NCBI RefSeq assembly: GCF_008065135.1
Contig: NZ_CP042914.1
Coordinates: 6,243,404-6,307,403 of the forward strand
Length of the DNA stretch: 64,000 bases
DNA from: Roseimaritima ulvae
GTDB taxonomy: Bacteria > Planctomycetota > Planctomycetia > Pirellulales > Pirellulaceae
Direction: 5' to 3'
The notes beneath the pieces are model-generated. The model ran no database searches and was not told the DNA's origin. It was given only the letters and a program-made list of their open reading frames with translations. Every line of letters begins with the position of its first letter. Position 1 is the first letter of the stretch. A program made the position numbers and the translations under genes. Shown in pieces: positions 12,219 to 51,402 of the stretch.

Positions 12219-12229
12219 ATGTTTACCCC

Positions 12230-12330
12230 GTAGCACAACTCCCCCGTAGCACGACTCTCCGAGTCGTGTAACCCCCGTAGCATGGGTCCCCGGCCCGTGC
12301 ACCCCCGTAGCACGACTCTCCGAGTCGTGT
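12230..12330. repeat. Cluster of short palindromic repeats A and B
   Basis: A repeats have the form gtagcacgactctccgagtcgtg, a near-perfect palindrome with an 8-base arm and a 3-base loop; copies lie at 12246-12268 and 12308-12330. One B repeat (gtagcatgggtccccggcccgtg type) lies at 12278-12300. A half A repeat at 12230-12241 stops at the palindrome centre and runs straight into the next A copy. Confidence 0.9.
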
Positions 12331-12345
12331 AAACCGCAGCCACAG

Positions 12346-12420: not shown

Positions 12421-12545
12421 CACCACCACTCGCGAAAATCACCAAAATTCGCGACTTTCGAACGAACCTATCCAGCGCCAACCTATGGTTGTCAGCACCC
12501 CAGCTGCCACCCACAGGAACGAAGTCCGCGCCAACGAAACGCCCC

Positions 12546-12628
12546 GTAGCATGACTCTCTGAGTCGTGTCCCCCCGTAGCATGACTCTCTGAGTCGTGTC
12601 CCCCCGTAGCATGGGTCCCCGGCCCGTG
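12546..12628. repeat. Repeat cluster A, A, B
   Basis: Two A-type copies with a ctctctgag centre lie at 12546-12568 and 12576-12598, followed by one B copy at 12606-12628. The next A repeat (12636) is split by the MITE-like element. The cluster lies in the gap between the deacetylase and the next glycosyltransferase. Confidence 0.88.
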
Positions 12629-12970: not shown

Positions 12971-14398
12971 ATGTTGCCTCGTTTACTCTTCCTGACGCAC
13001 CGCTTTCCGTACCCGCCTAACCGTGGGGATCGGATTCGGTCCTATAACATGCTCCGCGAACTGGCGCAGCGGCACCGCGTGACGCTGGCCTGTACCACGG
13101 ACGAAGCGGTTGCCGACAGCGACTTACAGCACGTCGAAGAGCTTTGCGAGAGCGTACTTGTGGCTCCGCTTCACCGTCTCCGCCGCGTGCTCCGAGGCGC
13201 CGGATCGGTGGCCCGGGGCGGCAGTTTGACCGAAGGCATGTTTCATTCTCCCGCCCTATTCGCCCAGGTCGCCTCGGCGCAGCAACAACATCCCTTCGAC
13301 AACGTGCTAGTGTTCTGCTCCAGCATGTTTCCCTATATCGACCATGGCTGTTTTACCGGCACCCCCACGGTTGTCGATTTGGTGGACGTGGACAGTCAGA
13401 AGTGGGCGCAGATGAGTCGCGAAACAGGGGCGCCCAAACGGTGGGTGTATCGCTTGGAAGCCCATCGAGTTGGCAAGTTGGAACAGCGGATTGCCAACCG
13501 TGCATGCGCCGTCACCTTGGTCAGCGATAGCGAAGCCGACGTGTTCCGCAAGACGCTCACGGAGGCCAAACCGGCGCTGAACATCTGCGGCATCAGCAAC
13601 GGCGTTGACACCGACTACTTTCGCCCACCGTCTGGCCGTAGCCACGCTCGCCAGAGCGTGGGCGCTGGAGTCCAGCCTTTAGGCGCCCACAAGCCTATAA
13701 CCGAATCGGCTAAAGCCTACACTCCAGCGCCATCCCAGGCCAACGCCCACCAGAGCGTCGGCCCCCAAAACGAACCACCGTCTGGCGACGGTAGCTACGG
13801 GGGAGCGTCGGCCGAAACCGATCCTTCAAACTTCGAACTTCGAACTTCAAACTTCCTCCGTCTCGTATTCACCGGCGTGCTCGACTACCACCCCAACGTC
13901 GAAGGCATCGATTGGTTCTGTCGTCAGGTGATGCCCGAGTTGCTGCGAAACGTCGACGCCGAGCTTGCGATCGTCGGTCGCCGTCCCACGCCACGGGTTT
14001 TAGAGCTCGCGAACATGGCAGGCGTTAGAGTGGTCGGCGAAGTGCCGGACGTACGTCCCTACCTACACGCCGCCGACGTCGCCATTTCGCCGCTCTCCTT
14101 AGCCCGCGGTATTCAAAACAAAGTGCTCGAAGCCATGGCGACGGGGTTGCCCGTGGTCTTAACGCGTCCCTCCGCCGAAGGCATCGAGGCCGAATCCGGT
14201 CAGCACTTTGTGATCGCCGACAGCGCTGCGGAATGGACCGAGCGGTTGGTAGCTCTGGCGCGCGACGCGCAGTCCAGAGCCGACATCGGCGAGGCGGCCA
14301 GGGAATTGGTCGTCAAGGAGTATTCTTGGTCCGCAAAGCTAAGTGACTTCCAGACCTTGTTAGACACCAACAAGACCGATGCCCCCCACACCCCGTAG
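12971..14398 (+). CDS. Glycosyltransferase, Stp1-type (PEP-CTERM/exosortase-associated)
   Basis: This is a GT-B family 4-like transferase that adds a sugar to the growing lipid-linked chain. It resembles the exosortase-associated sugar transferase family: the N terminus LFLTHRFPYPPNRGDRIRSY, VDLVDVDSQKW near residue 138, GVLDYHPN and a C-terminal EAMATGLPVV donor-site motif. The open frame extends upstream to 12668, but that part is translated repeat DNA, so ATG 12971 is chosen (475 residues). Residues about 219-293 (13624-13850) do not belong to the fold: they are intergenic repeat sequence carried in frame between the two Rossmann domains. The TAG stop is the one inside the gtag of the following D repeat. 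Confidence 0.9.
   Translation: MLPRLLFLTHRFPYPPNRGDRIRSYNMLRELAQRHRVTLACTTDEAVADSDLQHVEELCESVLVAPLHRLRRVLRGAGSVARGGSLTEGMFHSPALFAQVASAQQQHPFDNVLVFCSSMFPYIDHGCFTGTPTVVDLVDVDSQKWAQMSRETGAPKRWVYRLEAHRVGKLEQRIANRACAVTLVSDSEADVFRKTLTEAKPALNICGISNGVDTDYFRPPSGRSHARQSVGAGVQPLGAHKPITESAKAYTPAPSQANAHQSVGPQNEPPSGDGSYGGASAETDPSNFELRTSNFLRLVFTGVLDYHPNVEGIDWFCRQVMPELLRNVDAELAIVGRRPTPRVLELANMAGVRVVGEVPDVRPYLHAADVAISPLSLARGIQNKVLEAMATGLPVVLTRPSAEGIEAESGQHFVIADSAAEWTERLVALARDAQSRADIGEAARELVVKEYSWSAKLSDFQTLLDTNKTDAPHTP
13624..13850. repeat. Intergenic-type repeats inserted in frame in a glycosyltransferase
   Basis: The stretch holds a palindromic pair (gcgctggagtccagccttta and, inverted, taaagcctacactccagcg), a cgccagagcgtggg motif, two cgtctgg...ggtagc units and a run of aacttcgaacttcaaac. 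These are noncoding-type repeats, yet the frame is kept open across about 75 codons. They fall in the linker between the N- and C-terminal domains. Confidence 0.75.
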
Positions 14399-15690: not shown

Positions 15691-15901
15691 GTAGCACGAC
15701 TCTCGGGACGTGAAGTGTATTAATGACGGATTCACTTCACTCTCCCTCTGGGAGAGTCGAGCGTCAGCGAGGAGAGGGCGACCGCGCCGCCGCCAAAGAA
15801 CCTCCCCTCGCTAAGGCTCGACCCTCCTTAAAAAGAAGGGTGAAGCAAGCGGCCCCAAGGTCCAATTCTGCAGTAATACCTTTCACGTCCCCCGAGTCGT
15901 G
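15691..15901. repeat. Second A palindrome split at its centre by element C
   Basis: gtagcacgactctc at 15691-15704 and cgagtcgtg at 15893-15901 are the two halves of one A repeat, with MITE-like element C exactly at the centre. The junction is the same as at 12636-12852, down to the base on the left side. Confidence 0.85.
15705..15892. mobile_element. MITE-like element C, copy 2 (about 188 bp)
   Basis: Terminal inverted repeats gggacgtgaagtgtatta and gtaatacctttcacgtcc bound an interior nearly identical to copy 1, including the same internal inverted repeat. Small length differences sit near the middle, and substitutions occur in the right terminal repeat. No protein is encoded. Confidence 0.8.
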
Positions 15902-15909
15902 GCCCCCGC

Positions 15910-16612
15910 GTAGCATGGGTCCACGGCCCGTGCCTGCAAAATCCCTCAACACACTATCCACACGGGCCAGGGGCCCATGCTACAAACTCCCCCCGTAGCA
16001 TGACTCTCCGAGTCGTGGCCTCCGCGTAGCATGGGTCCCCGGCCCGTGTCCTGAAAACCCCCTTAACACACTATCCACACGGGCCAGGGGCCCATGCTAC
16101 AAACTCCCCCCGTAGCATGACTCTCCGAGTCGTGGCCCCCGCGTAGCATGGGTCCACGGCCCGTGCCTGCAAAATCCCTCAACACACTATCCACACGGGC
16201 CAGGGGCCCATGCTACGAACTCCCCCCGTAGCATGACTCTCCGAGTCGTGGCCCCCGCGTAGCATGGGTCCCTGGCCCGTGTCCTGAAAACCCCCTCAAC
16301 ACACTATCCACACGGGCCAGGGGCCCATGCTACAAACTTCCCCCCGTAGCATGACTCTCCGAGTCGTGGCCCCCCGCGTAGCATGGGTCCCCGGCCCGTG
16401 TCCTGCAAACCCCCTTAACACACTATCCACACGGGCCAGGGGCCCATGCTAGAAACTCCCCCCGTAGCATGACTCTCCGAGTCGTGGCCCCCGCGTAGCA
16501 TGGGTCCCCGGCCCGTGCCTGCAAAATCCCTCAACACGCTATCCACACGGGCCAGGGGCCCATGCTACTAATTTTCCCAATCGCCACGGGCCGGGGGCCC
16601 ATGCTACAACCA
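15910..16612. repeat. Tandem array of six ~117-bp units
   Basis: Units begin at 15910, 16026, 16143, 16259, 16378 and 16495, giving periods of 116-119 bases. Each full unit reads B repeat, spacer with aacacactatccacac, inverted B repeat (cacgggccaggggcccatg), then an A repeat, so each unit contains a potential B/B' hairpin of about 75 bases plus an A hairpin. Units differ by point changes and by 1-3 base indels. The last unit lacks the A repeat and instead ends in one more inverted B copy, just upstream of the acyltransferase GTG. No coding function is seen. Confidence 0.92.
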
Positions 16613-16617
16613 CCAAC

Positions 16618-17211
16618 GTGAGGTCCTTCCTTAAATCCTGTTGCCGCGGCTTCGCGATCCTGCTGGTCGCGCCATTGCTGGCCACCCATATCGTCTTGTC
16701 ACGGCTGAGTTCACCGGACGGCTCTTTGGAAGCTCATTCCCAGTGCCTATCCTGCCTGCCGGGTTTGCTGGGCAGTTATCTGCGAGTTGGTTTTTACCGG
16801 TTTGCGTTGGCAAAATGTTCGCCCACGGCCACGATCAGCTTTGGCGTGTTGTTTTCCAAAGTCACCGCGTGCATCGACGAGCACGTGTACATCGGCCCGC
16901 ACTGCATGTTGGGCTCCGTGACCCTGGAACGCGACGTGTTGCTGGGCCCCCATGTGCAAATCCCCAGCGGCCCGCACACACACGGGATCGAACGCCTGGA
17001 CGTGCCGATCCGGCATCAGCCCGGGTGCCCGCAGCGAATCACGGTGGGGCAGGACAGCTGGATCGGAGCGGGCAGTATCGTGTTGGCGGACATCGCAACT
17101 CAAACCGTCGTCGCCGCCGGCGCCGTAGTCACCAAGCCCCAACCGCCAAGAACCATCATCGGCGGCTGCCCGGCCAAAGTCCTCCGCCACCGCGAAGACG
17201 CACCCCCGTAA
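16618..17211 (+). CDS. Hexapeptide-repeat acyltransferase (LbH fold)
   Basis: This 197-residue protein has an N-terminal hydrophobic segment (about 12-30) and a left-handed beta-helix built from hexapeptide repeats between about residues 70 and 180, with IGPHCMLGSVTL, GQDSWIGAGSIVLADI and VVAAGAVVTK as clear turns. Such proteins O- or N-acetylate sugars of polysaccharides using acetyl-CoA. The histidines in GPHCML and GPHTHGIE could contribute to catalysis. The GTG start lies eight bases after the last B repeat of the tandem array, and the TAA stop is the one in a diverged A repeat (gtaacacaactctc), so the gene is bounded at both ends by repeat DNA. The acceptor is not predictable. Confidence 0.85.
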   Translation: MRSFLKSCCRGFAILLVAPLLATHIVLSRLSSPDGSLEAHSQCLSCLPGLLGSYLRVGFYRFALAKCSPTATISFGVLFSKVTACIDEHVYIGPHCMLGSVTLERDVLLGPHVQIPSGPHTHGIERLDVPIRHQPGCPQRITVGQDSWIGAGSIVLADIATQTVVAAGAVVTKPQPPRTIIGGCPAKVLRHREDAPP

Positions 17212-17431
17212 CACAACTCTCCTGTAGCATGGGCCCCCGGCCCGTGCCCCCGTAGCATGACTCTCCCGTAGCATGGGCCCCCGGCCCGTGCCCCCGTAGC
17301 ATGACTCTCCGAGTCGTGCAGTACCACCACAACCACCAACCATCAGTCCACACGGGCCAGGGGCCCATGCTACTAGAGCCTCTAGTCCCTAAAGCAGCAA
17401 AGCACACGACTCGGAGAGTCATGCTACGCGG
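17208..17431. repeat. Cluster of A and B repeats with broken palindromes
   Basis: Two half A repeats, each ending at the palindrome centre, are each followed at once by a full B repeat. A complete A repeat follows, then an inverted B and an inverted A near 17350-17427. The mixture shows repeated recombination or insertion at A centres. Confidence 0.85.
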
Positions 17432-17893: not shown

Positions 17894-18799
17894 ATGACCA
17901 CCGTAATCGAGAATACCAGCGAACCGTCCACCGCTGCGGCCACGCAAACCGAAGACCTTCCCGTGGTCGTGTATTCGCCGGAATCGCCGCTGGCGCATCC
18001 GGGCAAGCTGGTGCGGGAGGTGTTCAGCGACCTGTGGCGTTGCCGCGAACTGATCTGGATCCTGTTCCAGCGTGACCTCAAGGCGCAATTTCGCCAAAGC
18101 TACCTCGGCTACGTATGGCTGTTCCTGCCGCCGGTGATGACCACCATGGTGTGGCTGTTTTTGAACAGCCAGCGAGTAATCTCGGTGGGCGATACCGGCA
18201 TTCCGTATCCGGTGTTTGTGATCATCGGCAGCGTGGTCTGGCAAACTTTTACTAAGCTGATCACCAGCCCGCTGAGCTCATTTAACGCCGGCAAACCGGT
18301 ATTCATGAAGCTCAAGGTGCCTCCGGAGGCTTTCATTGCCGCAGGAACCGCGCGGGCTGTCTTCGATTTCATCCTGTATTCCGCGGTTCTGATCCCCGTG
18401 ATGCTGGTCTTTCAGATCATGCCGCCCTGGACGATTTTGTTGGTGCCGGTCGCCGTGCTAGCGTTGTTCGCATTGGGGACGGCGTTAGGGCTGGTGTTAG
18501 TCCCCTTCGGCAGTCTCTACTCCGATATCCAGCAAGCCATCCCGGTGCTGATGGGCTTCCTTATGTACATGGCCCCGGTAGTGTACCCTCCTCCCAAAGA
18601 AGGCTGGGCGGCGTTGGCGATTTCATGGAATCCCCTAACGCCCATCCTGATGGGAATGCGAGACTTCATAACCACTGGCTCGCTGCAACATCTTGCCTCG
18701 ATTCTCATGCTCCTCCCATTATCCTGCTTAATCATCTTCCTCTCCATGCTGGTCATCCGAGTGGTAATGCCACATTTGATCGCACGTATGGGAATGTAG
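17894..18799 (+). CDS. ABC-2 type polysaccharide/polyol exporter permease (Wzm/TagG-like)
   Basis: This is a 301-residue integral membrane protein with a cytoplasmic N-terminal region (LIWILFQRDLKAQFRQSYLG, the conserved RD-K-R-Y-S/L-G amphipathic entry of ABC-2 exporters) and six hydrophobic segments between about residues 75 and 295. Proteins of this family pair with a Wzt-type ATPase to export finished lipid-linked polysaccharide. The matching ATPase is at 23790, about 5 kb downstream, separated by sugar-nucleotide genes and S23 cassettes. ATG 17894 is well placed. The stop is followed directly by a G-rich octamer array. Confidence 0.9.
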   Translation: MTTVIENTSEPSTAAATQTEDLPVVVYSPESPLAHPGKLVREVFSDLWRCRELIWILFQRDLKAQFRQSYLGYVWLFLPPVMTTMVWLFLNSQRVISVGDTGIPYPVFVIIGSVVWQTFTKLITSPLSSFNAGKPVFMKLKVPPEAFIAAGTARAVFDFILYSAVLIPVMLVFQIMPPWTILLVPVAVLALFALGTALGLVLVPFGSLYSDIQQAIPVLMGFLMYMAPVVYPPPKEGWAALAISWNPLTPILMGMRDFITTGSLQHLASILMLLPLSCLIIFLSMLVIRVVMPHLIARMGM

Positions 18800-18800
18800 C

Positions 18801-18912
18801 GGGGAGGGGCAGCAGGAGAGTAGGGCAGTAAGGCAGTGGGTACCAGAGCCTAACTGCCTAACTGCCTAACTGCCTAACTGCCTAACTGCCTAACTGCCTA
18901 ACTGCCCAACTC
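18801..18912. repeat. Empty octamer cassette (inverted GGCAGT arrays without an S23 gene)
   Basis: A G-rich arm (ggggcagcaggagagtaggg, cagtaaggcagtggg) is followed after about seven bases by a C-rich arm of at least seven taactgcc octamers. The two arms are inverted relative to each other, like those flanking the S23 genes at 19840 and 21398, but here nothing lies between them. It fills the junction between the permease and the RmlD-like gene. Confidence 0.85.
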
Positions 18913-18918
18913 CTCCCC

Positions 18919-19812
18919 ATGCACATCGCCCTGATCGGAGCCTCCGGATACGTCGGAGCTGAATTTGCCGCCCAGATCAACGCTCGTGGTGACCGGCTGA
19001 CAACCGTTGGCCGAGCCGACTGCGACGTCTACTCGGCCGAAGCGTTGCGCAAGACGCTCCGCGACGCTTCACCAGACGTCGTCGTCAACTGTGCGGGTTA
19101 CACCGGCAAGCCCAACGTGGACGCTTGCGAACTGGACAAAGCCAATTGCCTGGCCGGTAACGGTGTCCTTCCCGGCGTGATCCAACAGGCCTGCGAATCC
19201 CTAAACATCCCCTGGGGACATGTCTCGTCGGGCTGCATTTTCACCGGACGCCGCCCCGACGGGAAAGGCTTTGTCGAAACCGACACACCCAACTTCTCCT
19301 TCCGCCAGAACAACTGCAGCTGGTACTCGGGCACCAAAGCCCTGGGCGAAGAAGTCTTAGCGGACGCCCAGCAATGCTACATATGGCGGCTGCGGATTCC
19401 CTTTTCCAACATCGATTCCCCACGCAACTACCTCTCCAAAGTTCAACGCTACGAAAACCTGCTGGAAGCCGAGAACAGCCTGTCGAATCTGCCCGAATTT
19501 GTGGCCGCCTGCCTGGATTGTTTTTCCAAGAACGTGCCGTACGACATCTACAATCTGACTAATCCGGGCAGCATGAAGACCTCGGAAGTCGTCGAGCTGA
19601 TCAAAGCGTCGGGCGTCTCGGACAAACAATTTCACTTCTTCGACTCCGAAGACGACTTCATGCAACGAGCCGCCAAGACGCCCCGCTCGAATTGCGTCAT
19701 GGACAGCAGCAAAGCCATCGCAGCAGGATTGAAACTAACACCGATCGAAGAATGTATTCAGCAGACGCTAAAAAACTGGGTGCCGGAGAAGGAAGCGGCA
19801 GTAGGGCAGTAG
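18919..19812 (+). CDS. RmlD-like NAD(P)-dependent sugar-nucleotide reductase/epimerase
   Basis: This is a short-chain dehydrogenase-fold enzyme (297 residues) with a Rossmann motif GASGYVG at residues 7-13, NCAGYTG near 61, and a catalytic Tyr136-X3-Lys140 (WYSGTK) preceded by SSGCIFTG. It resembles dTDP-4-dehydrorhamnose reductases and relatives, and neighbouring RmlA and RmlB homologues support a dTDP-deoxysugar pathway. No RmlC epimerase is in the window, so the true product may not be rhamnose. The last residues (about AAVGQ) are encoded by the octamer array that follows, and the TAG stop is within a gcagtagggcag unit, so the native C terminus may have been replaced. Confidence 0.82.
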   Translation: MHIALIGASGYVGAEFAAQINARGDRLTTVGRADCDVYSAEALRKTLRDASPDVVVNCAGYTGKPNVDACELDKANCLAGNGVLPGVIQQACESLNIPWGHVSSGCIFTGRRPDGKGFVETDTPNFSFRQNNCSWYSGTKALGEEVLADAQQCYIWRLRIPFSNIDSPRNYLSKVQRYENLLEAENSLSNLPEFVAACLDCFSKNVPYDIYNLTNPGSMKTSEVVELIKASGVSDKQFHFFDSEDDFMQRAAKTPRSNCVMDSSKAIAAGLKLTPIEECIQQTLKNWVPEKEAAVGQ

Positions 19813-20275
19813 GGCAGTGGGGCAGTGGGAGCTTATACATTGCACAAGCCACATCGTCAGCGTCATGTATGGCAGGATTCGATAACGGTTGCCGAAGCAG
19901 TTTATGCAGCGACAGAACGGTTTCCCGATGAAGAACGGTTCGGGTTGGTTTCGCAAATGCGTCGATGTGCGGTGTCAATTCCGTCCAACATTGCGGAAGG
20001 CGCCGCAAAGGACTCCCCGGCGGGTTATTCGTGTTTCCTTACCATCGCAATCGGTTCGGTGGCCGAGCTCGATACCCAGCTGGAACTTTCTAACCGTCTC
20101 GAATCCCTAAATACTGAAGACCACGAACAGCTCGACACGAAACCAGGTATTGGCAGCCGAATGCTCATCGCCCTACACCGTTCCATCCGCGCAAAGATCT
20201 AGCACCTCACTGCCTCACTGCCTCACTGCCCAACTGCCCAACTGCCCAACTGCCTCACTGCCTCACTGCCCAACT
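19797..20275. mobile_element. Octamer-armed S23 cassette, copy 1
   Basis: The left arm (19797-19829) is built of gggcagtg-type octamers. The right arm (20206-20275) is a run of ctcactgc/caactgcc octamers, inverted relative to the left. A four-helix-bundle gene is the only content. The cassette sits between the RmlD-like gene, whose tail and stop it supplies, and RmlB. Calling it mobile is inference from the three similar copies nearby. Confidence 0.6.
19840..20202 (+). CDS. S23-type four-helix bundle protein, copy 1
   Basis: This is a 120-residue helical protein of the family first known from 23S rRNA intervening sequences (PF05635/TIGR02436 type), related in fold to the Avd accessory protein of diversity-generating retroelements. 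The family core is clear: [20 protein letters not shown] followed by [19 protein letters not shown]. Its molecular role is not established; nucleic-acid binding is only suggested for the family. The TTG at 19840 is chosen because it aligns with the ATG of copy 2 and gives the same length; a GTG at 19825 would start in the octamer arm. By my count about 85 of 118 aligned residues match copy 2. Confidence 0.85.
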
Positions 20276-20291
20276 CACCTCCTCCCCCAAA

Positions 20292-21347
20292 ATGCAAACC
20301 CTTCTTCTCACCGGCGGTGCCGGCTTTATCGGTGGCTGCTTTGTGCGTCGGGCGGTCGAGTCGGGACGCTACAAAATCGTCAATCTCGACGCGCTGACTT
20401 ACGCGGGCAACCTGGATTCGATTCCCGGCGAAGGCCCCAATCACGTGTTTGTCCAAGGCAGCATCTCCGACGGGGACTTGGTCGGCTCGCTGTTGGAACA
20501 GCATCGGCCGGACGCGGTGTTGAATTTTGCCGCCGAGTCGCATGTGGACCGCTCGATCGACGGCCCCGGAGCGTTTATTGACACCAACATCGGTGGTACT
20601 TTTCGCCTGCTCAATGCCACGCTGGGCTACTGGAAAACCTTGCCGGCCGAAGCCCAAGCCACGTTTCGCTTCCTGCACGTCTCGACCGACGAAGTCTACG
20701 GCTCGCTGGGCGCCGAAGGTTACTTTACGGAAACCACGGCCTACTCCCCCAATTCGCCCTACTCGGCATCCAAAGCGGCCTCGGATCACTTGGTTCGCGC
20801 CTGGCTGCACACCTACGGCCTGCCCACGCTGATCACCAACTGCTCCAACAACTACGGCCCCTACCAGTTCCCGGAAAAGCTGATTCCTCTGATGACGCTT
20901 AACGCCATCGAAGGCAAACCGTTGCCCGTTTACGGAGACGGCATGAACGTCCGCGACTGGCTGTATGTCGAGGACCACTGCTCGGCGCTGGAAACCGTAT
21001 TGGACGGCGGCCAAGTAGGGGAAACTTACAACGTGGGCGGCAACTGCGAGCAGACCAATATCGACATCGTCAAAACCATCTGCCGCACCGTCAGCGAACT
21101 GCTGCCCGACCTGCCGCATCGCTGCGAAGACCTAATCACGTACGTGACCGATCGTCCCGGGCACGACCGTCGCTACGCCATCGACGCCAGCAAAATCAAG
21201 GACGAGTTAGGCTGGACGCCGCAGTCCAACTTCGCCGACGGCATCCGCCAGACGGTGCAGTGGTACATCGAGAATACGTCCTGGGTAGAGAATATCACTT
21301 CGGGCAAGTATCAGCGGGAGAGGCTGGGGGTAGGGGGTAGGGGGTAG
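20292..21347 (+). CDS. rfbB: dTDP-glucose 4,6-dehydratase
   Basis: This enzyme converts dTDP-glucose to dTDP-4-keto-6-deoxyglucose. The 351-residue product shows the glycine motif TGGAGFIGG at residues 7-15, DALTYAGN near 36, the active-site STDEVYG near 133, and Tyr157-X3-Lys161 (PYSASK). The C-terminal [11 protein letters not shown] motif of RmlB is also present. Length is normal. The last residues (about RLGVGGRG) and the TAG stop are encoded by a ggggtagggggtagggcag stretch at the start of the next octamer cassette. It is flanked on both sides by S23 cassettes, between the RmlD-like gene and RmlA. Confidence 0.95.
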
Positions 21348-21885
21348 GGCAGTGGGGCAGTGGGGCAGTGGGGCAGTAAGAAAATTGGGGGTAGAAGATG
21401 GAAAAGCCACATCGTCAGCTTCGTGTTTGGCGGGATTCGATGAAATTGGTGGAAAAGGTTTACGATGTGACGCATCGCTTCCCAAGTGAGGAACGATTTG
21501 GATTGGTTTCGCAGATGCGTCGCTGTGCTGTCTCAATACCGTCCAACATTGCAGAGGGTGCCGCCAAAAACTCCGCAGCAGATTATTCTCGCTTTCTGAC
21601 CATCGCAATCGGTTCAGTGGCCGAACTCGACACGCAACTAGAACTCTCAAAACGCCTCACATTTCTGACCGAAGAAGACCACCAGAATCTCGACAATCAA
21701 CTAGGCTCGATCAGCCGAATGCTAGTCGCCCTCCGCCGTTCCATCCGCAACAGCCGGTAGCCTAACTGCCCAACTGCCCAACTGCCCCACTGCCCCACTG
21801 CCCAACTGCCCAACTGCCCAACTGCCTTTCCCCGCCATGTCTCCCACTGCCCCACTGCCCAACTCCCCCACTGCCCGAAAAGGAA
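21328..21885. mobile_element. Octamer-armed S23 cassette, copy 2
   Basis: The left arm (21328-21378) runs from ggggtag units into four cagtgggg-type octamers. The right arm (about 21760-21885) is a long series of ccaactgc/cccactgc octamers inverted relative to the left arm. An S23 gene lies between. The right arm contains the ATG of rfbA, so the cassette overlaps that coding sequence by 13 codons. Confidence 0.6.
21398..21760 (+). CDS. S23-type four-helix bundle protein, copy 2
   Basis: This 120-residue protein starts at ATG with [15 protein letters not shown], typical of the family's N terminus (short basic tail, then a W-containing first helix), and carries the conserved [17 protein letters not shown] core and a [19 protein letters not shown] third helix. 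It is a close paralogue of the gene at 19840. Both the DNA and the surrounding octamer arms are similar, so the two cassettes probably share a recent origin. No partner reverse transcriptase, variable repeat or transposase gene is present in the window, so neither a DGR accessory role nor a transposition role is supported directly. Confidence 0.9.
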
Positions 21886-22739
21886 TCATCCTCGCCGGCG
21901 GCTCCGGTTCGCGTCTGCATCCGATCACCAAGGGCATCAGCAAACAGTTACTGCCGATCTACGACAAGCCGATGGTGTATTACCCGCTGTCGACGCTGAT
22001 GCTGGCCGGGATCCAAGAGATCCTGCTGATCTCCACGCCGCACGACCTGCCGGGTTTCGAGCGACTGCTCGGTGACGGGTCACAGTGGGGCTTGAAGCTA
22101 TCCTATGCCGAGCAACCCAGCCCCGATGGTTTGGCCCAGGCATTTATTATCGGACGCGAATTCATCGGGGATGACTCGGTCGCGTTGGTGCTGGGCGACA
22201 ATATTTTTTACGGTCAGGGATTCAGCAAGATGCTGCAGTCGGCATCCGCACGCGACGCTGGAGCGACCATTTTTGGATACCATGTCCAAGATCCAGAGCG
22301 TTACGGGATCGTCGAATTTGATTCCCACGGACAAGTCGTATCCTTGGAAGAAAAACCGAAACAGCCCAAATCGTCTTACGCGGTACCCGGGTTGTACTTC
22401 TACGACAATCGCGTGGTCGAAATTGCCACAAACCTAAAACCCTCGCCGCGGGGCGAGCTGGAGATCACGGACGTCAACAAAGCCTACTTGAAATCGGGCG
22501 AGTTATCGGTAGAGCTATTTTCGCGCGGCTTCGCCTGGCTGGACACCGGAACCCGCGACAGCCTGTTAGACGCCTGCAACTTCGTCGCCGCTATTGAAAA
22601 ACGGCAGGGTTTGAAGATTTCGTGCCCTGAGGAAATCGCCTTCGTCAAAGGATTTATTGATGCGGACCACCTGCACCGGCTGTCGTCCGAGATGAAGAAC
22701 GAGTACGGAACCTACCTACAACACCTTGTTCCGAACTGA
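21837..22739 (+). CDS. rfbA: Glucose-1-phosphate thymidylyltransferase
   Basis: This enzyme makes dTDP-glucose from dTTP and glucose-1-phosphate, the entry step to dTDP-deoxysugars. The nucleotidyltransferase signature [13 protein letters not shown] is at residues 18-30, followed by [26 protein letters not shown] near 120 and [16 protein letters not shown] near 226. The first 13 residues ([13 protein letters not shown]) have no counterpart in the family and are translated octamer repeat; no other start codon lies between them and the conserved domain, so this ATG is forced. With that extension the protein is 300 residues; without it the length is the usual one. It completes an RmlA-B-D-like set lacking RmlC. 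Confidence 0.95.
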
Positions 22740-40022: not shown

Positions 40023-41041
40023 CGGTTAGTGACAAATTTGAAGATTGTAAAATATTGATTACCGGCGGCGCTGGCTTTGTTGGGTCAGAGGTCGTTCGGC
40101 AGTTTTCCCAGCTCAAGAATGCAAGCCTGGCGGTGTTGGACAATTTCGCGTCGGGTCGTCGCGATTTCTTGTCGGCTGTGCCGGAATGCGAGATAGAGGA
40201 GATCGATCTACTTGATCGAGAAAACGTGTTTCGTTGTGTCGACCGTTTTCGCCCTGACTTCGTTGTCCATCTCGCGGCCATTCACTTCATTCCGTATTGC
40301 AATCGGTTTCCCGCGGAATGCATTCGGGTGAACATTGAAGGTACTCAGAATCTGCTGGACGCTTTGCTGAATTCGTCGGTTCGACGGGTCGTCGCCGCAT
40401 CGTCCGCAGCCGTCTACCCTATTCACGACGGTGCCTGTGGAGAATCAAGCGTATCGCCAGAACCGACGGACGTATACGGACTGAGTAAGCTTTGCAACGA
40501 AATGCAACTCCAACAATTTCACGCAAAGTCAGGTGTGGATTCGGCCGCCGCACGTTTCTTCAATGTTTACGGACCACGGGAAACCAATCCGCATGTTATC
40601 CCAGAACTTCTCAATCAGCTCCTGGAAGGAGCGAGCGAGCTAAAGCTGGGAAACTTAGAACCCAAGCGAGATTACATTCATGTCGAAGACGTCGCTCGTG
40701 CTTGCATCGCACTCGCAGCAGATGCGTCTGGCTTCGGTGCGTACAATGTCGGCACCGGGACAGAGTTTTCTGTTGCGGAGATCGTTTCGCATTTTAAAGC
40801 GATCTCCGCTCGGCCTTTCGAGGTAGTGCAAGATAAGAACAAGGTCAGGAAGTCCGATCGGATGCACCTCCGAGCGGACACCAGCAAAATTCAGGAAGCT
40901 GTCGGCTTTACCGCAAAGGTAGGTTTTGCGGATGGCTTGGCGGACCTCTGGGATTGGGGACAAGCCAATCCTGTCTTACGAGACTTTTCGGGCTCGCAAT
41001 CTGTCCGTATGGAGCGACCTCTTGCGGGGTCTGACCGATGA
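40019..41041 (+). CDS. NAD-dependent epimerase/dehydratase (UDP-sugar type)
   Basis: This is an SDR-fold sugar-nucleotide enzyme of 340 residues: glycine motif TGGAGFVGSEVVRQF near residue 15, HLAAIHFIPYC near 84, ASSAAVYP near 123, and catalytic Tyr-X3-Lys in VYGLSKLCNEMQ near 152. RFFNVYGPRE and DYIHVEDVARACI follow in the usual order. It resembles UDP-glucose/GlcNAc 4-epimerases and related dehydratases; which substrate it uses is open. Its start and stop both overlap glycosyltransferase genes (ATGA), which suggests the sugar it makes is used by one of them. Confidence 0.9.
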   Translation: MTVSDKFEDCKILITGGAGFVGSEVVRQFSQLKNASLAVLDNFASGRRDFLSAVPECEIEEIDLLDRENVFRCVDRFRPDFVVHLAAIHFIPYCNRFPAECIRVNIEGTQNLLDALLNSSVRRVVAASSAAVYPIHDGACGESSVSPEPTDVYGLSKLCNEMQLQQFHAKSGVDSAAARFFNVYGPRETNPHVIPELLNQLLEGASELKLGNLEPKRDYIHVEDVARACIALAADASGFGAYNVGTGTEFSVAEIVSHFKAISARPFEVVQDKNKVRKSDRMHLRADTSKIQEAVGFTAKVGFADGLADLWDWGQANPVLRDFSGSQSVRMERPLAGSDR

Positions 41042-51308: not shown

Positions 51309-51320
51309 CGACCGCGCCAA

Positions 51321-51402
51321 GTAGCGTGGGCCCCCGGCCCGTGAAAAGTAGCATGGGTCCCCGGCCCGTGAAAAGTAGCATGGGTCCCCGGCCCGTGTGC
51401 CA
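51321..51402. repeat. Three B repeats
   Basis: Three B copies (gtagcatgggtccccggcccgtg type, the first with gtagcgtgggccc) are separated by aaaa. They lie right after the aminotransferase stop and are the first intergenic repeats of the A/B families seen since 17.4 kb. Confidence 0.88.

Follow-up and report, generated by a model that had tools for sequence, protein, structure and literature searches.

Mirrored short tandem arrays mostly frame S23 genes, between rml genes of a planctomycete and in a sample from many phyla

The window analyzed here (one stretch of 64 kb of the Roseimaritima ulvae genome) contains two S23 genes among genes of the rml type, as listed in Table 1. In the initial annotation, the two genes at 19840 and 21398 were described as framed by octamer arrays and their inverted copies, and this framing was confirmed by profile matches, octamer counts and Tandem Repeats Finder. 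The neighbours proposed there, a permease, an RmlD-like protein, RmlB and RmlA, were likewise confirmed by profile matches. The S23 proteins show 109.3 bits (gene 1) and 134.6 bits (gene 2) against PF05635 (cut-off 33.8), and 105 and 131 bits, respectively, against TIGR02436 (cut-off 24); thus both belong to the family. According to the sequence matches to 2gsc and 2rld, S23 is a predicted four-helix bundle. The ORF of gene 1 is also open from a GTG at 19825. The two proteins are identical at 85 of 120 positions, with a dN of 0.21 and a dS of 1.02; therefore, both genes look maintained.

Table 1. Features of the cassettes and host genes in the window (positions are those of the window).
Feature	Position	Strand	Evidence and remarks
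ABC-2 type permease (host gene)	17894..18799	+	PF01061 1.2e-12
Gene-less inverted arm pair (solo hairpin)	18807..18911	+	Degenerate GGGCAGTR arm, then 8x GCCTAACT; Tandem Repeats Finder, fold
RmlD-like reductase (host gene)	18919..19812	+	PF04321 7.4e-25; C-terminus encoded by cassette 1 left arm
Cassette 1 left (5') arm	19797..19826	+	4x GGGCAGTR; RmlD-like ORF end inside
S23 gene 1 (predicted four-helix bundle)	19840..20202	+	TTG start; PF05635 1.3e-31, TIGR02436 2.6e-30 (ORF from 19825)
Cassette 1 right (3') arm	20205..20270	+	8 inverted octamers; pairs with left arm
RmlB (host gene)	20292..21347	+	TIGR01181 1.2e-145, above cut-off
GGGGGTA heptamer run before cassette 2 left arm	21326..21349	+	RmlB ORF end here
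Cassette 2 left (5') arm	21347..21377	+	4x GGGCAGTG
S23 gene 2 (predicted four-helix bundle)	21398..21760	+	ATG start; PF05635 1.9e-39, TIGR02436 2.6e-38
Cassette 2 right (3') arm	21760..21876	+	11 inverted octamers, blocks 21760-21826 and 21843-21876; RmlA ORF start inside
RmlA (host gene)	21837..22739	+	TIGR01207 4.2e-149, above cut-off

Each cassette is about 475 nt in size. Only the S23 ORF is present between the arms; the proposed layout, a transposase-free gene cassette bounded by short inverted arms, holds. The left arms contain the ends of the RmlD-like and RmlB ORFs, and the right arm of cassette 2 contains the start of the longest RmlA ORF. Octamers were counted as GGCAGT/ACTGCC matches spaced 8 nt; the counted runs span 19797-19826 and 21348-21377 in the left arms and 20209-20270 and 21765-21875 in the right arms, and the same arrays were detected by Tandem Repeats Finder. 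The spacing is broken twice in the right arm of cassette 2. The fold of cassette 2 (21344-21834) has a z of -3.8, and the arms are paired in the predicted structure. In the rest of the window, GGCAGT/ACTGCC occurs as singletons, except for one pair 40 nt apart. Three consecutive octamers gave 61 matches genome-wide and the reversed pattern gave none, indicating that the arrays are not due to chance.

A specific link between the octamer and S23 was also supposed in the initial annotation. However, 13 octamer array sites outside the window are devoid of S23, and no cluster of the octamer lies within 1.5 kb of any of the eight S23 matches located elsewhere in the genome. The octamer-specific association was therefore rejected, in line with the refuting condition given in that annotation when it is read literally. 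Most of these eight genes carry inverted arms, composed of different short units, so that the co-occurrence of S23 and arms stands for any short unit.

The genome (8.2 Mb) contains 10 matches to S23 (PF05635). A locus was regarded as armed when the inverted arm score was 15 or more; the distances were measured from the ends of the profile match for S23 loci and from the ORF ends for controls. Inverted arms were detected at nine of the 10 S23 matches (seven clear), versus 5 of 271 other ORFs (Fisher 7e-13). Two loci are doubtful: the arrays of L005 are mainly direct (85 versus 18.5), and the arms of L010 are located about 200-320 nt away from an S23 match under the family cut-off. Without these two, 7/10 are armed and the Fisher value is still 4e-9. 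At L006 and L007, the best arm partner belongs to an adjacent hairpin built from the same unit. Arms are visible by eye at L004, with a score of 12.5, below 15. For these loci, the direct-repeat score was judged against shuffles scored for inverted repeats. Direct arrays surround the S23 gene at 620094.

The same measurement was performed against S23 loci of many phyla (far set), the best 80 of at least 563 confirmed loci. These were picked by two peptide patterns, and the set therefore leans to typical S23 proteins. Four loci with a flank shorter than 100 nt (L095, L103, L129 and L149) were dropped. Arms were observed at 68 of the 76 remaining loci and at 2 of 54 control ORFs (Fisher 4e-25). 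Among these best-scoring loci, the inverted arms exceeded 100 of 100 shuffles in 70/76, whereas only 9/76 did so as direct repeats, and in 60 of the 68 armed loci neither arm begins more than 120 nt from the S23 match. Arms are less frequent at S23 genes outside the typical set: 19 of 29 loci in the order set, which consists of the 29 better-scoring S23 loci, and 16 of 29 in Spirochaetota. In the spirochaete set, from which one locus of 30 (L270) was dropped, several loci share nearly the same protein, L267 is the same gene as L162 of the far set, and a direct repeat outscores the inverted one in seven of the 16 armed loci. The fraction of control ORFs with a score of 15 or more is low in all three control sets (5/271, 2/54 and 2/156). 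These results indicate that the mirrored framing extends much wider than the window and applies to most S23 genes of this planctomycete and of the sample taken across many phyla. S23 matches are present sporadically, in 25 of 40 genomes (own included). Tandem arrays of period 6-9 without S23, composed of many different units, are common in the own genome (19 per 400 kb sampled); thus, S23 predicts arms, whereas arrays do not predict S23.

The arm units differ between cassettes of one genome and match within a cassette. When each arm was compared with its own partner and with the remaining armed cassettes of that genome, the own partner was best in 31 of 33 cases. The 5' arm is G-rich on the S23 sense strand in 103 of 108 loci. 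The period is 7 or 14 in 78 of 96 loci and 8, as in the window cassettes, in 14. Across phyla, with labels assigned by hand, arm unit and S23 protein co-vary weakly (permutation p 0.001). In the far set (best 80 of at least 563), the arms are TGGGGAG in Nostoc and CGGGGAC in Xanthomonas S23 cassettes. Intergenic arrays of period 7 are reported in the available portions of two papers, G-rich GGGAATC in Xanthomonas and GGGGAYT in Nostoc (PMC4692102), and TAACTGA in Beggiatoaceae (PMC4679880). They share the period and the intergenic location with the arms, but they are described there as arrays alone; those portions contain no four-helix or 23S terms, and that of PMC4679880 does not contain S23. 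In the literature outside bioRxiv and most subscription journals, no report that links S23 genes lying outside rRNA to heptamer arms was recognised.

Orthologous junctions without a cassette exist, as had been anticipated. Genomes have or lack the unit as one block at the rmlB-rmlA junction, at a tRNA-Cys/Arg junction, and between two genes that we take, by names and peptide motifs, to be carA and carB. The left insertion point at carA-carB is the same in four genomes, and no target-site duplication is evident by eye; 6 of 30 loci, where both genes were not found, were left out of the carA comparison. From another set of 30 loci, L199, L211, L215 (contig edge) and L221 were left out. In a genome of the same genus (G002), one cassette is present in seven copies at three sites, and is recently multiplied. 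The neighbouring genes are mostly co-oriented with S23 (upstream 58 versus 9, downstream 41 versus 20). At the tRNA cluster, the S23 gene is oriented opposite to the tRNA genes, unlike a classical intervening sequence (IVS).

The known system closest to these cassettes is the 23S rRNA IVS, which RNase III excises from the transcript with no subsequent ligation. The IVS of Coxiella burnetii contains an S23p ORF, complementary ends and tandem heptamers, and is cleaved by RNase III; it is 428 nt long, with three GACAGAT heptamers just upstream of the ORF, and such IVSs are sporadic and thought to be spread horizontally (PMC4990558). The window cassettes share the S23 ORF (PF05635 match), short tandem repeats, a similar size, sporadic presence, and ends able to close a stem according to the predicted fold. 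They differ in lying between rml genes and not inside an rRNA gene, as cassettes elsewhere lie between protein or tRNA genes. Their arms are longer tandem arrays, and several cassettes are present per genome, each with its own unit. No rRNA match was detected within the flanks examined at the far loci (0/80, best 80 of at least 563) or the spirochaete loci (0/30). The arm measure therefore covers no true rRNA IVS, and the link to the IVS is based on PMC4990558 and the protein family.

The junctions show that the whole unit was inserted in one piece, resembling the known rRNA gene insertions but located elsewhere. Thus, we consider that each unit is probably a small IVS-type insertion element outside rRNA, composed of a G-rich short tandem array, an S23 ORF and the inverted array. 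The arm unit and the S23 protein would travel together. In the transcript, pairing of the arms would leave the S23 ORF in a loop, and the stem may be cut by RNase III or a comparable enzyme, by analogy with 23S rRNA IVSs; insertion between operon genes or between tRNAs would thereby be tolerated. S23, a relative of Avd of diversity-generating retroelements, may bind the nucleic acid of its own element and help a trans-acting enzyme to copy that element into further transcribed sites. At the DNA level, slippage and fold-back copying between the arms would keep them alike. No enzyme for the movement was found: of the 25 genomes with S23, reverse transcriptase is absent from seven and Y1 transposase from three.

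A wider proposal is possible, and we advance it with somewhat less than even confidence. S23 genes would define widespread minimal mobile elements of bacteria and perhaps archaea, whose ends may be any mirrored G-rich heptamer or octamer array. The element would remake its own ends, each cassette converging on a private unit via arm-to-arm copying, and the rRNA IVS would be only its best-known landing place. The S23 family (PF05635) has no known role and is named after one location. If most S23 genes prove to be the only gene in an IVS-type element whose mirrored arms are private to it, the family gains a context and the rRNA IVSs gain a likely source. Arms or remnants may then account for some of the unexplained heptamer arrays in planctomycetes, cyanobacteria and xanthomonads. 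The private arms make recognition of its own unit by S23 directly testable, and the route of movement could be tested by comparing filled and empty junctions.

In another explanation, the stem is a host-useful RNA device, namely an element for mRNA processing or stability that keeps operon genes apart and is regulated by the S23 product, with mobility incidental and old. The co-orientation with neighbours, the identical left insertion point at carA-carB and the purifying selection on the window S23 pair agree with it. On the other hand, G.U and A.C mismatches between the arms are 130 and 120, respectively (108 loci, p 0.57), and selection for RNA pairing is unsupported because G.U shows no excess. 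By subset, the numbers are 51 versus 27 in the order set (28 loci, p 0.009) and 70 versus 78 in the far set (best 80 of at least 563). As no overall signal was obtained at 96, 107 or 108 loci, RNA-level selection via wobble asymmetry was rejected, and the lean of the order set is not relied on. The sporadic presence of S23 and the recent multiplication in G002 also disagree with such a device, which we regard as unlikely.

It is less probable still that S23 plays the part of Avd beside a reverse transcriptase that copies the RNA of the element into DNA, although such copying would explain the preference for transcribed junctions. Avd is a related, predicted four-helix protein; S23 gene 2 matches the bAvd and DivGenRetAVD models weakly, below their cut-offs, and PMC10053308 notes the resemblance between PF05635 and Avd. 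Of the three G002 sites, two have a reverse transcriptase 2-5 kb from the cassette, with identical order and orientation, and its blocks align separately from the cassettes. Unlike a diversity-generating retroelement, the S23 cassettes contain no reverse transcriptase ORF; the nearest RVT_1 match in the own genome (G000) is at 6345012, about 80 kb away. G032 has seven S23 matches and no RVT_1 match. Reverse transcriptase is present in 18 of 25 genomes with S23 versus 10 of 15 without (p 0.74), and was rejected as a general partner.

Slippage in intergenic DNA may produce short tandem arrays throughout such genomes, and S23 may merely lie among them or be selected there, for example as an array-binding regulator. 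The abundance of arrays relative to the 10 S23 matches, the octamer arrays without S23, and the direct arrays at 620094 and around several spirochaete S23 genes fit this explanation. The rarity of inverted arms at other ORFs and of the direct arrangement in the far set, the private match within cassettes, and the block absence at orthologous junctions make it improbable.

REP/RAYT units consist of a small gene with hairpin repeats, with gene-less copies elsewhere. The analogy to these units in the initial annotation holds for the layout, but the 23S rRNA IVS resembles the cassettes more closely in protein content and architecture. The S23 unit contains neither the Y1 transposase of REP/RAYT nor, between its terminal inverted arms, the transposase of an insertion sequence, and the arms are private to each cassette. 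Movement of the hairpin-ended units by a Y1 (HUH) transposase in trans, REP/RAYT-like or IS200-like, with S23 as a passenger or accessory, agrees with the hairpin ends and the lack of an evident target duplication at carA-carB, but a sequence-specific transposase would hardly tolerate the variation of arms between cassettes, and we consider it equally improbable. Y1_Tnp is present in 22 of 25 genomes with S23 versus 8 of 15 without (p 0.024, uncorrected for genome size and kinship). Since this association is weak and no Y1 match is present in G029 (one contig, four S23 matches), G003 and G034, Y1 transposase was rejected as an obligatory partner. Among the matches listed for G000, the Y1 match closest to the cassettes lies at 6434440, at a distance of about 170 kb.

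A third arm pair, absent from the initial annotation, is located between the permease and RmlD-like genes and has no gene. In the preferred IVS-type reading, arm pairs lacking a gene would represent copies that are decayed or non-autonomous. The halves of this solo hairpin are 18807-18840 and 18848-18911, and its RNA fold (z -3.6) is better than that of 200 of 200 shuffles.

The genome of Roseimaritima ulvae (G000) is a single contig of 8.21 Mb, and it contains the window at C1:6243404-6307403. Two S23 cassettes and one arm pair without a gene occupy three successive junctions of the permease, RmlD-like, RmlB and RmlA genes. The left arm of each cassette consists of four GGGCAGTR octamers, and the right arm consists of inverted octamers, eight for S23 gene 1 and 11 for S23 gene 2. 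According to the reading and the repeat search, the initial annotation was correct in placing two S23 genes between an octamer array and an inverted array at the rml-gene junctions. The left arms contain the ORF ends of RmlD-like and RmlB, and one right arm contains the start of the longest RmlA ORF. The two S23 proteins have 85 identical residues out of 120 (dN 0.21, dS 1.02), and the next closest protein among those compared shows 53% identity. Of the window units, two are complete cassettes and the third is an arm pair without a gene; all belong to a broad class of elements that resemble intervening sequences (IVS) of rRNA genes and are located outside rRNA.

Features in R. ulvae (G000; window positions unless G000 or a locus is stated) and in G002, a genome of the same genus
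Feature	Location	Units or match
S23 gene 1	19840-20202	PF05635/TIGR02436
S23 gene 2	21398-21760	PF05635/TIGR02436
Arm pair without gene	18807-18911	
Other repeat family	15892-16568	GTAGCATGACTC and GTAGCATGGG(T/C)CCCCGGCCCGTG; 116-bp units in tandem, up to 5.8 copies
Same repeat family	12226-12332, 12542-12613, 17203-17310, 51319-51397	
Heptamer array, no S23 match there	13824-13855	CTTCAAA, type as in tRNA-cluster arms
S23 arms, inverted	G000 tRNA cluster	GAAGTTT-like, TAGGTTG-like
S23 arms, inverted	G000 5339283	AGACAAGG-like
S23 arms, inverted	G000 753391	AAAATGC-like
S23 arms, inverted	G000 7575581	GGATTTT-like
Nested arms without gene	L011:1370-1545 (G000:C1:1405930)	left GAAGTTT, AAGGGAC; right GTCCTTT, ACTGCCCC, AAACTTC
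Longer element between short arrays	L024:1560-1890 (G000:C1:4978859)	ends CTGACTTTAACGGAATCTATGTATGG and near-inverted copy
End sequence similar to that of L024	L008:50-75	
Tandem cassettes, two copies	G002 1400138	GTGCTC/GAGCAC
Tandem cassettes, two copies	G002 2563881	GTGCTC/GAGCAC
Tandem cassettes, three copies	G002 2996513	GTGCTC/GAGCAC

The pattern ACTGCCNNACTGCCNNACTGCC has 61 matches in G000, and the reversed control pattern has 0. The 61 matches make up the three window elements and 13 further sites. None of these 13 sites is near any S23 match of the genome, and the remaining eight S23 matches have no octamer cluster within 1.5 kb. Thus the proposed association of the octamer with S23 fails genome-wide. 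On reading, most of the other S23 loci have inverted arms built from other units. At G000 620094 the main arrays are direct instead of inverted. The match at 40123 falls below the family cut-off, and 200-320 nt separate it from its arms. The nested arms at the locus L011 look as if elements had entered into one another.

For the arm test, the 350 nt upstream of every S23 match were compared with the 350 nt downstream in reverse complement, against 100 dinucleotide shuffles, mismatched partners and a fixed score of 15. Among the 39 loci of G000 (10) and of relatives (29), 30 exceed all 100 shuffles and 24 exceed every mismatched partner. For the 76 usable distant loci from the best 80 of 563 (about 16 phylum-level groups, assigned by title), the numbers are 70 and 50, and as direct repeats only 9 of the 76 exceed all shuffles. 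A score of at least 15 is reached by 9/10 loci of G000, 19/29 of relatives and 68/76 of those distant loci from the best 80 of 563. The controls that reach it are 5/271 ORFs in random G000 stretches and, within the distant loci, 2/54 of the other ORFs and 2/156 of the windows taken at random. When two doubtful loci of G000 are discounted, the contrast of 7/10 with 5/271 persists (p 4e-9). In Spirochaetota, including a divergent subfamily, 16 of 29 S23 loci are armed, and for 7 of the 16 the direct repeat gives the higher score. Among 96 loci, the 5' arm fits a period of 7 or 14 best in 78 and a period of 8 in 14; on the S23 sense strand this arm is rich in G in 103 of 108 loci. The nearest neighbours within 400 nt lie on the same strand as S23 more often than on the opposite strand, both upstream (58 v 9) and downstream (41 v 20).

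The units can differ per cassette inside one genome. The five cassettes of Adhaeribacter have the arm types AGACTTA, GATTTTTC, TTGGTTG, TTAATGA and ATTGTTA. In ten genomes with at least two armed loci, the own partner outscores every other armed cassette of the same genome in 31 of 33 cases. Arm similarity co-varies with S23 protein identity, and does so too over the 1936 cross-phylum pairs alone with G+C partialled out (rank correlation 0.15; permutation p 0.001, and likewise with permutation inside phyla). Similar arms are found in 6/20 cross-phylum pairs at protein identity of at least 0.60 versus 14/1550 pairs below 0.50, for example in Nostoc and an acidobacterium, and in a verrucomicrobium and two acidobacteria. 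The correlation is weak, and its direction is that which would be expected from joint transfer or recognition.

Empty forms of orthologous junctions, which the initial annotation took to bear on mobility, were found at carA-carB, tRNA-Cys/tRNA-Arg(gcg) and rmlB-rmlA. A carA match is present in 69/69 Xanthomonadaceae genomes, in two of these as a short match only. Thirty carA-carB loci were read, and both genes were found in 24. The junction is one nucleotide in 10 of the 24, and also in G066, provided that the first ATG is the start. With the S23 of the locus L166 as the tblastn query, three of the 30 loci (G040, G095 and G090) proved to contain S23, and a fourth occupied junction is that of Pseudoxanthomonas (L107). 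The other junctions contain other sequence. The four occupied junctions have a common left boundary, where the carA frame runs via ATG directly into CGGGAC. In G040, G095 and L107 the right arm stops immediately 5' of GGAG, a sequence that resembles a ribosome site and with which the empty form ends; the right end in G090 is unlike these. No target duplication was seen by eye at the occupied carA-carB junctions. The rmlB-rmlA junction holds an S23 cassette in G000 (GGGCAGTG arms) and in G014, of a related genus (GGTTTTG arms), and only 20 nt in G021. GTTGTTA arrays lie 3' of rmlB in G001, and in G002, G009 and a second G014 copy rmlB is not followed by rmlA in the stretch read. In G014, an in-frame insertion of ~174 nt with inverted GGCGAGT-type arms appears to lie within the coding sequence of rmlB itself (L068:880-1080). 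The block nature of the cassettes and their private mirrored arms are well supported.

The tRNA-Cys/tRNA-Arg(gcg) spacer is 15 nt in G022. In G000 it is occupied by an S23 cassette whose arms are GAAGTTT-like, and in G016 by an S23 cassette whose arms are AGTCTTT-like, together with further sequence. The G000 cluster of 12 tRNA genes contains three S23 cassettes, one with an in-frame stop, and hairpins without a gene, four of which were folded (z from -2.1, with 7/200 shuffles equally good, to -6.2). In G016, from another genus, four S23 matches adjoin tRNA genes within 7.4 kb (C12:219207-226589), and an S23 locus in a Bacteroidetes record (L108) adjoins five tRNAs. Therefore tRNA clusters may be a favoured site for S23 cassettes.

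In G002, one cassette type has been multiplied and dispersed recently. Its copies, one of which has in-frame stops, show 91-96% identity to one reference unit, and relatives with ~80% identity are located at two places in G001. The copies may have spread by segmental copying. Outside the cassette blocks, the first and second sites have only pieces of <220 nt in common, with about 79-89% identity; the second and third sites have a reverse transcriptase block in common. Nearly identical reverse transcriptase ORFs matching RVT_1 (L264 and L265; 397 and 479 aa at L264) lie 2-5 kb from the multiplied cassettes, in like order and orientation at both sites, and we take them to be of the group II intron type. 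RVT_1 is not a consistent partner (18/25 genomes with S23, 10/15 without), nor is the transposase profile Y1 (22/25 and 8/15).

In PMC4990558, the Coxiella IVS has an S23p ORF with complementary borders and three GACAGAT heptamers 5' of the ORF, and is cut by RNase III in vitro. Other papers link PF05635 with Avd, a protein of diversity-generating retroelements (PMC10053308), and describe 23S_rRNA_IVP ORFs inside 16S and 23S rRNA gene insertions of CPR bacteria (PMC11270868). Heptamer arrays are described in PMC4692102, PMC4679880 and PMC4853749, and no match to four-helix terms was found in them. An rRNA match was found in 0 of the 110 S23 loci scanned, within their flanks. A wobble excess between the arms is absent (130 G.U versus 120 A.C, p 0.57); the loci of relatives alone lean to G.U (51 v 27). 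Both the processing of the cassettes as RNA and their route of movement are inferred. The solved structures found by sequence are 2gsc (XCC0516) and 2rld.
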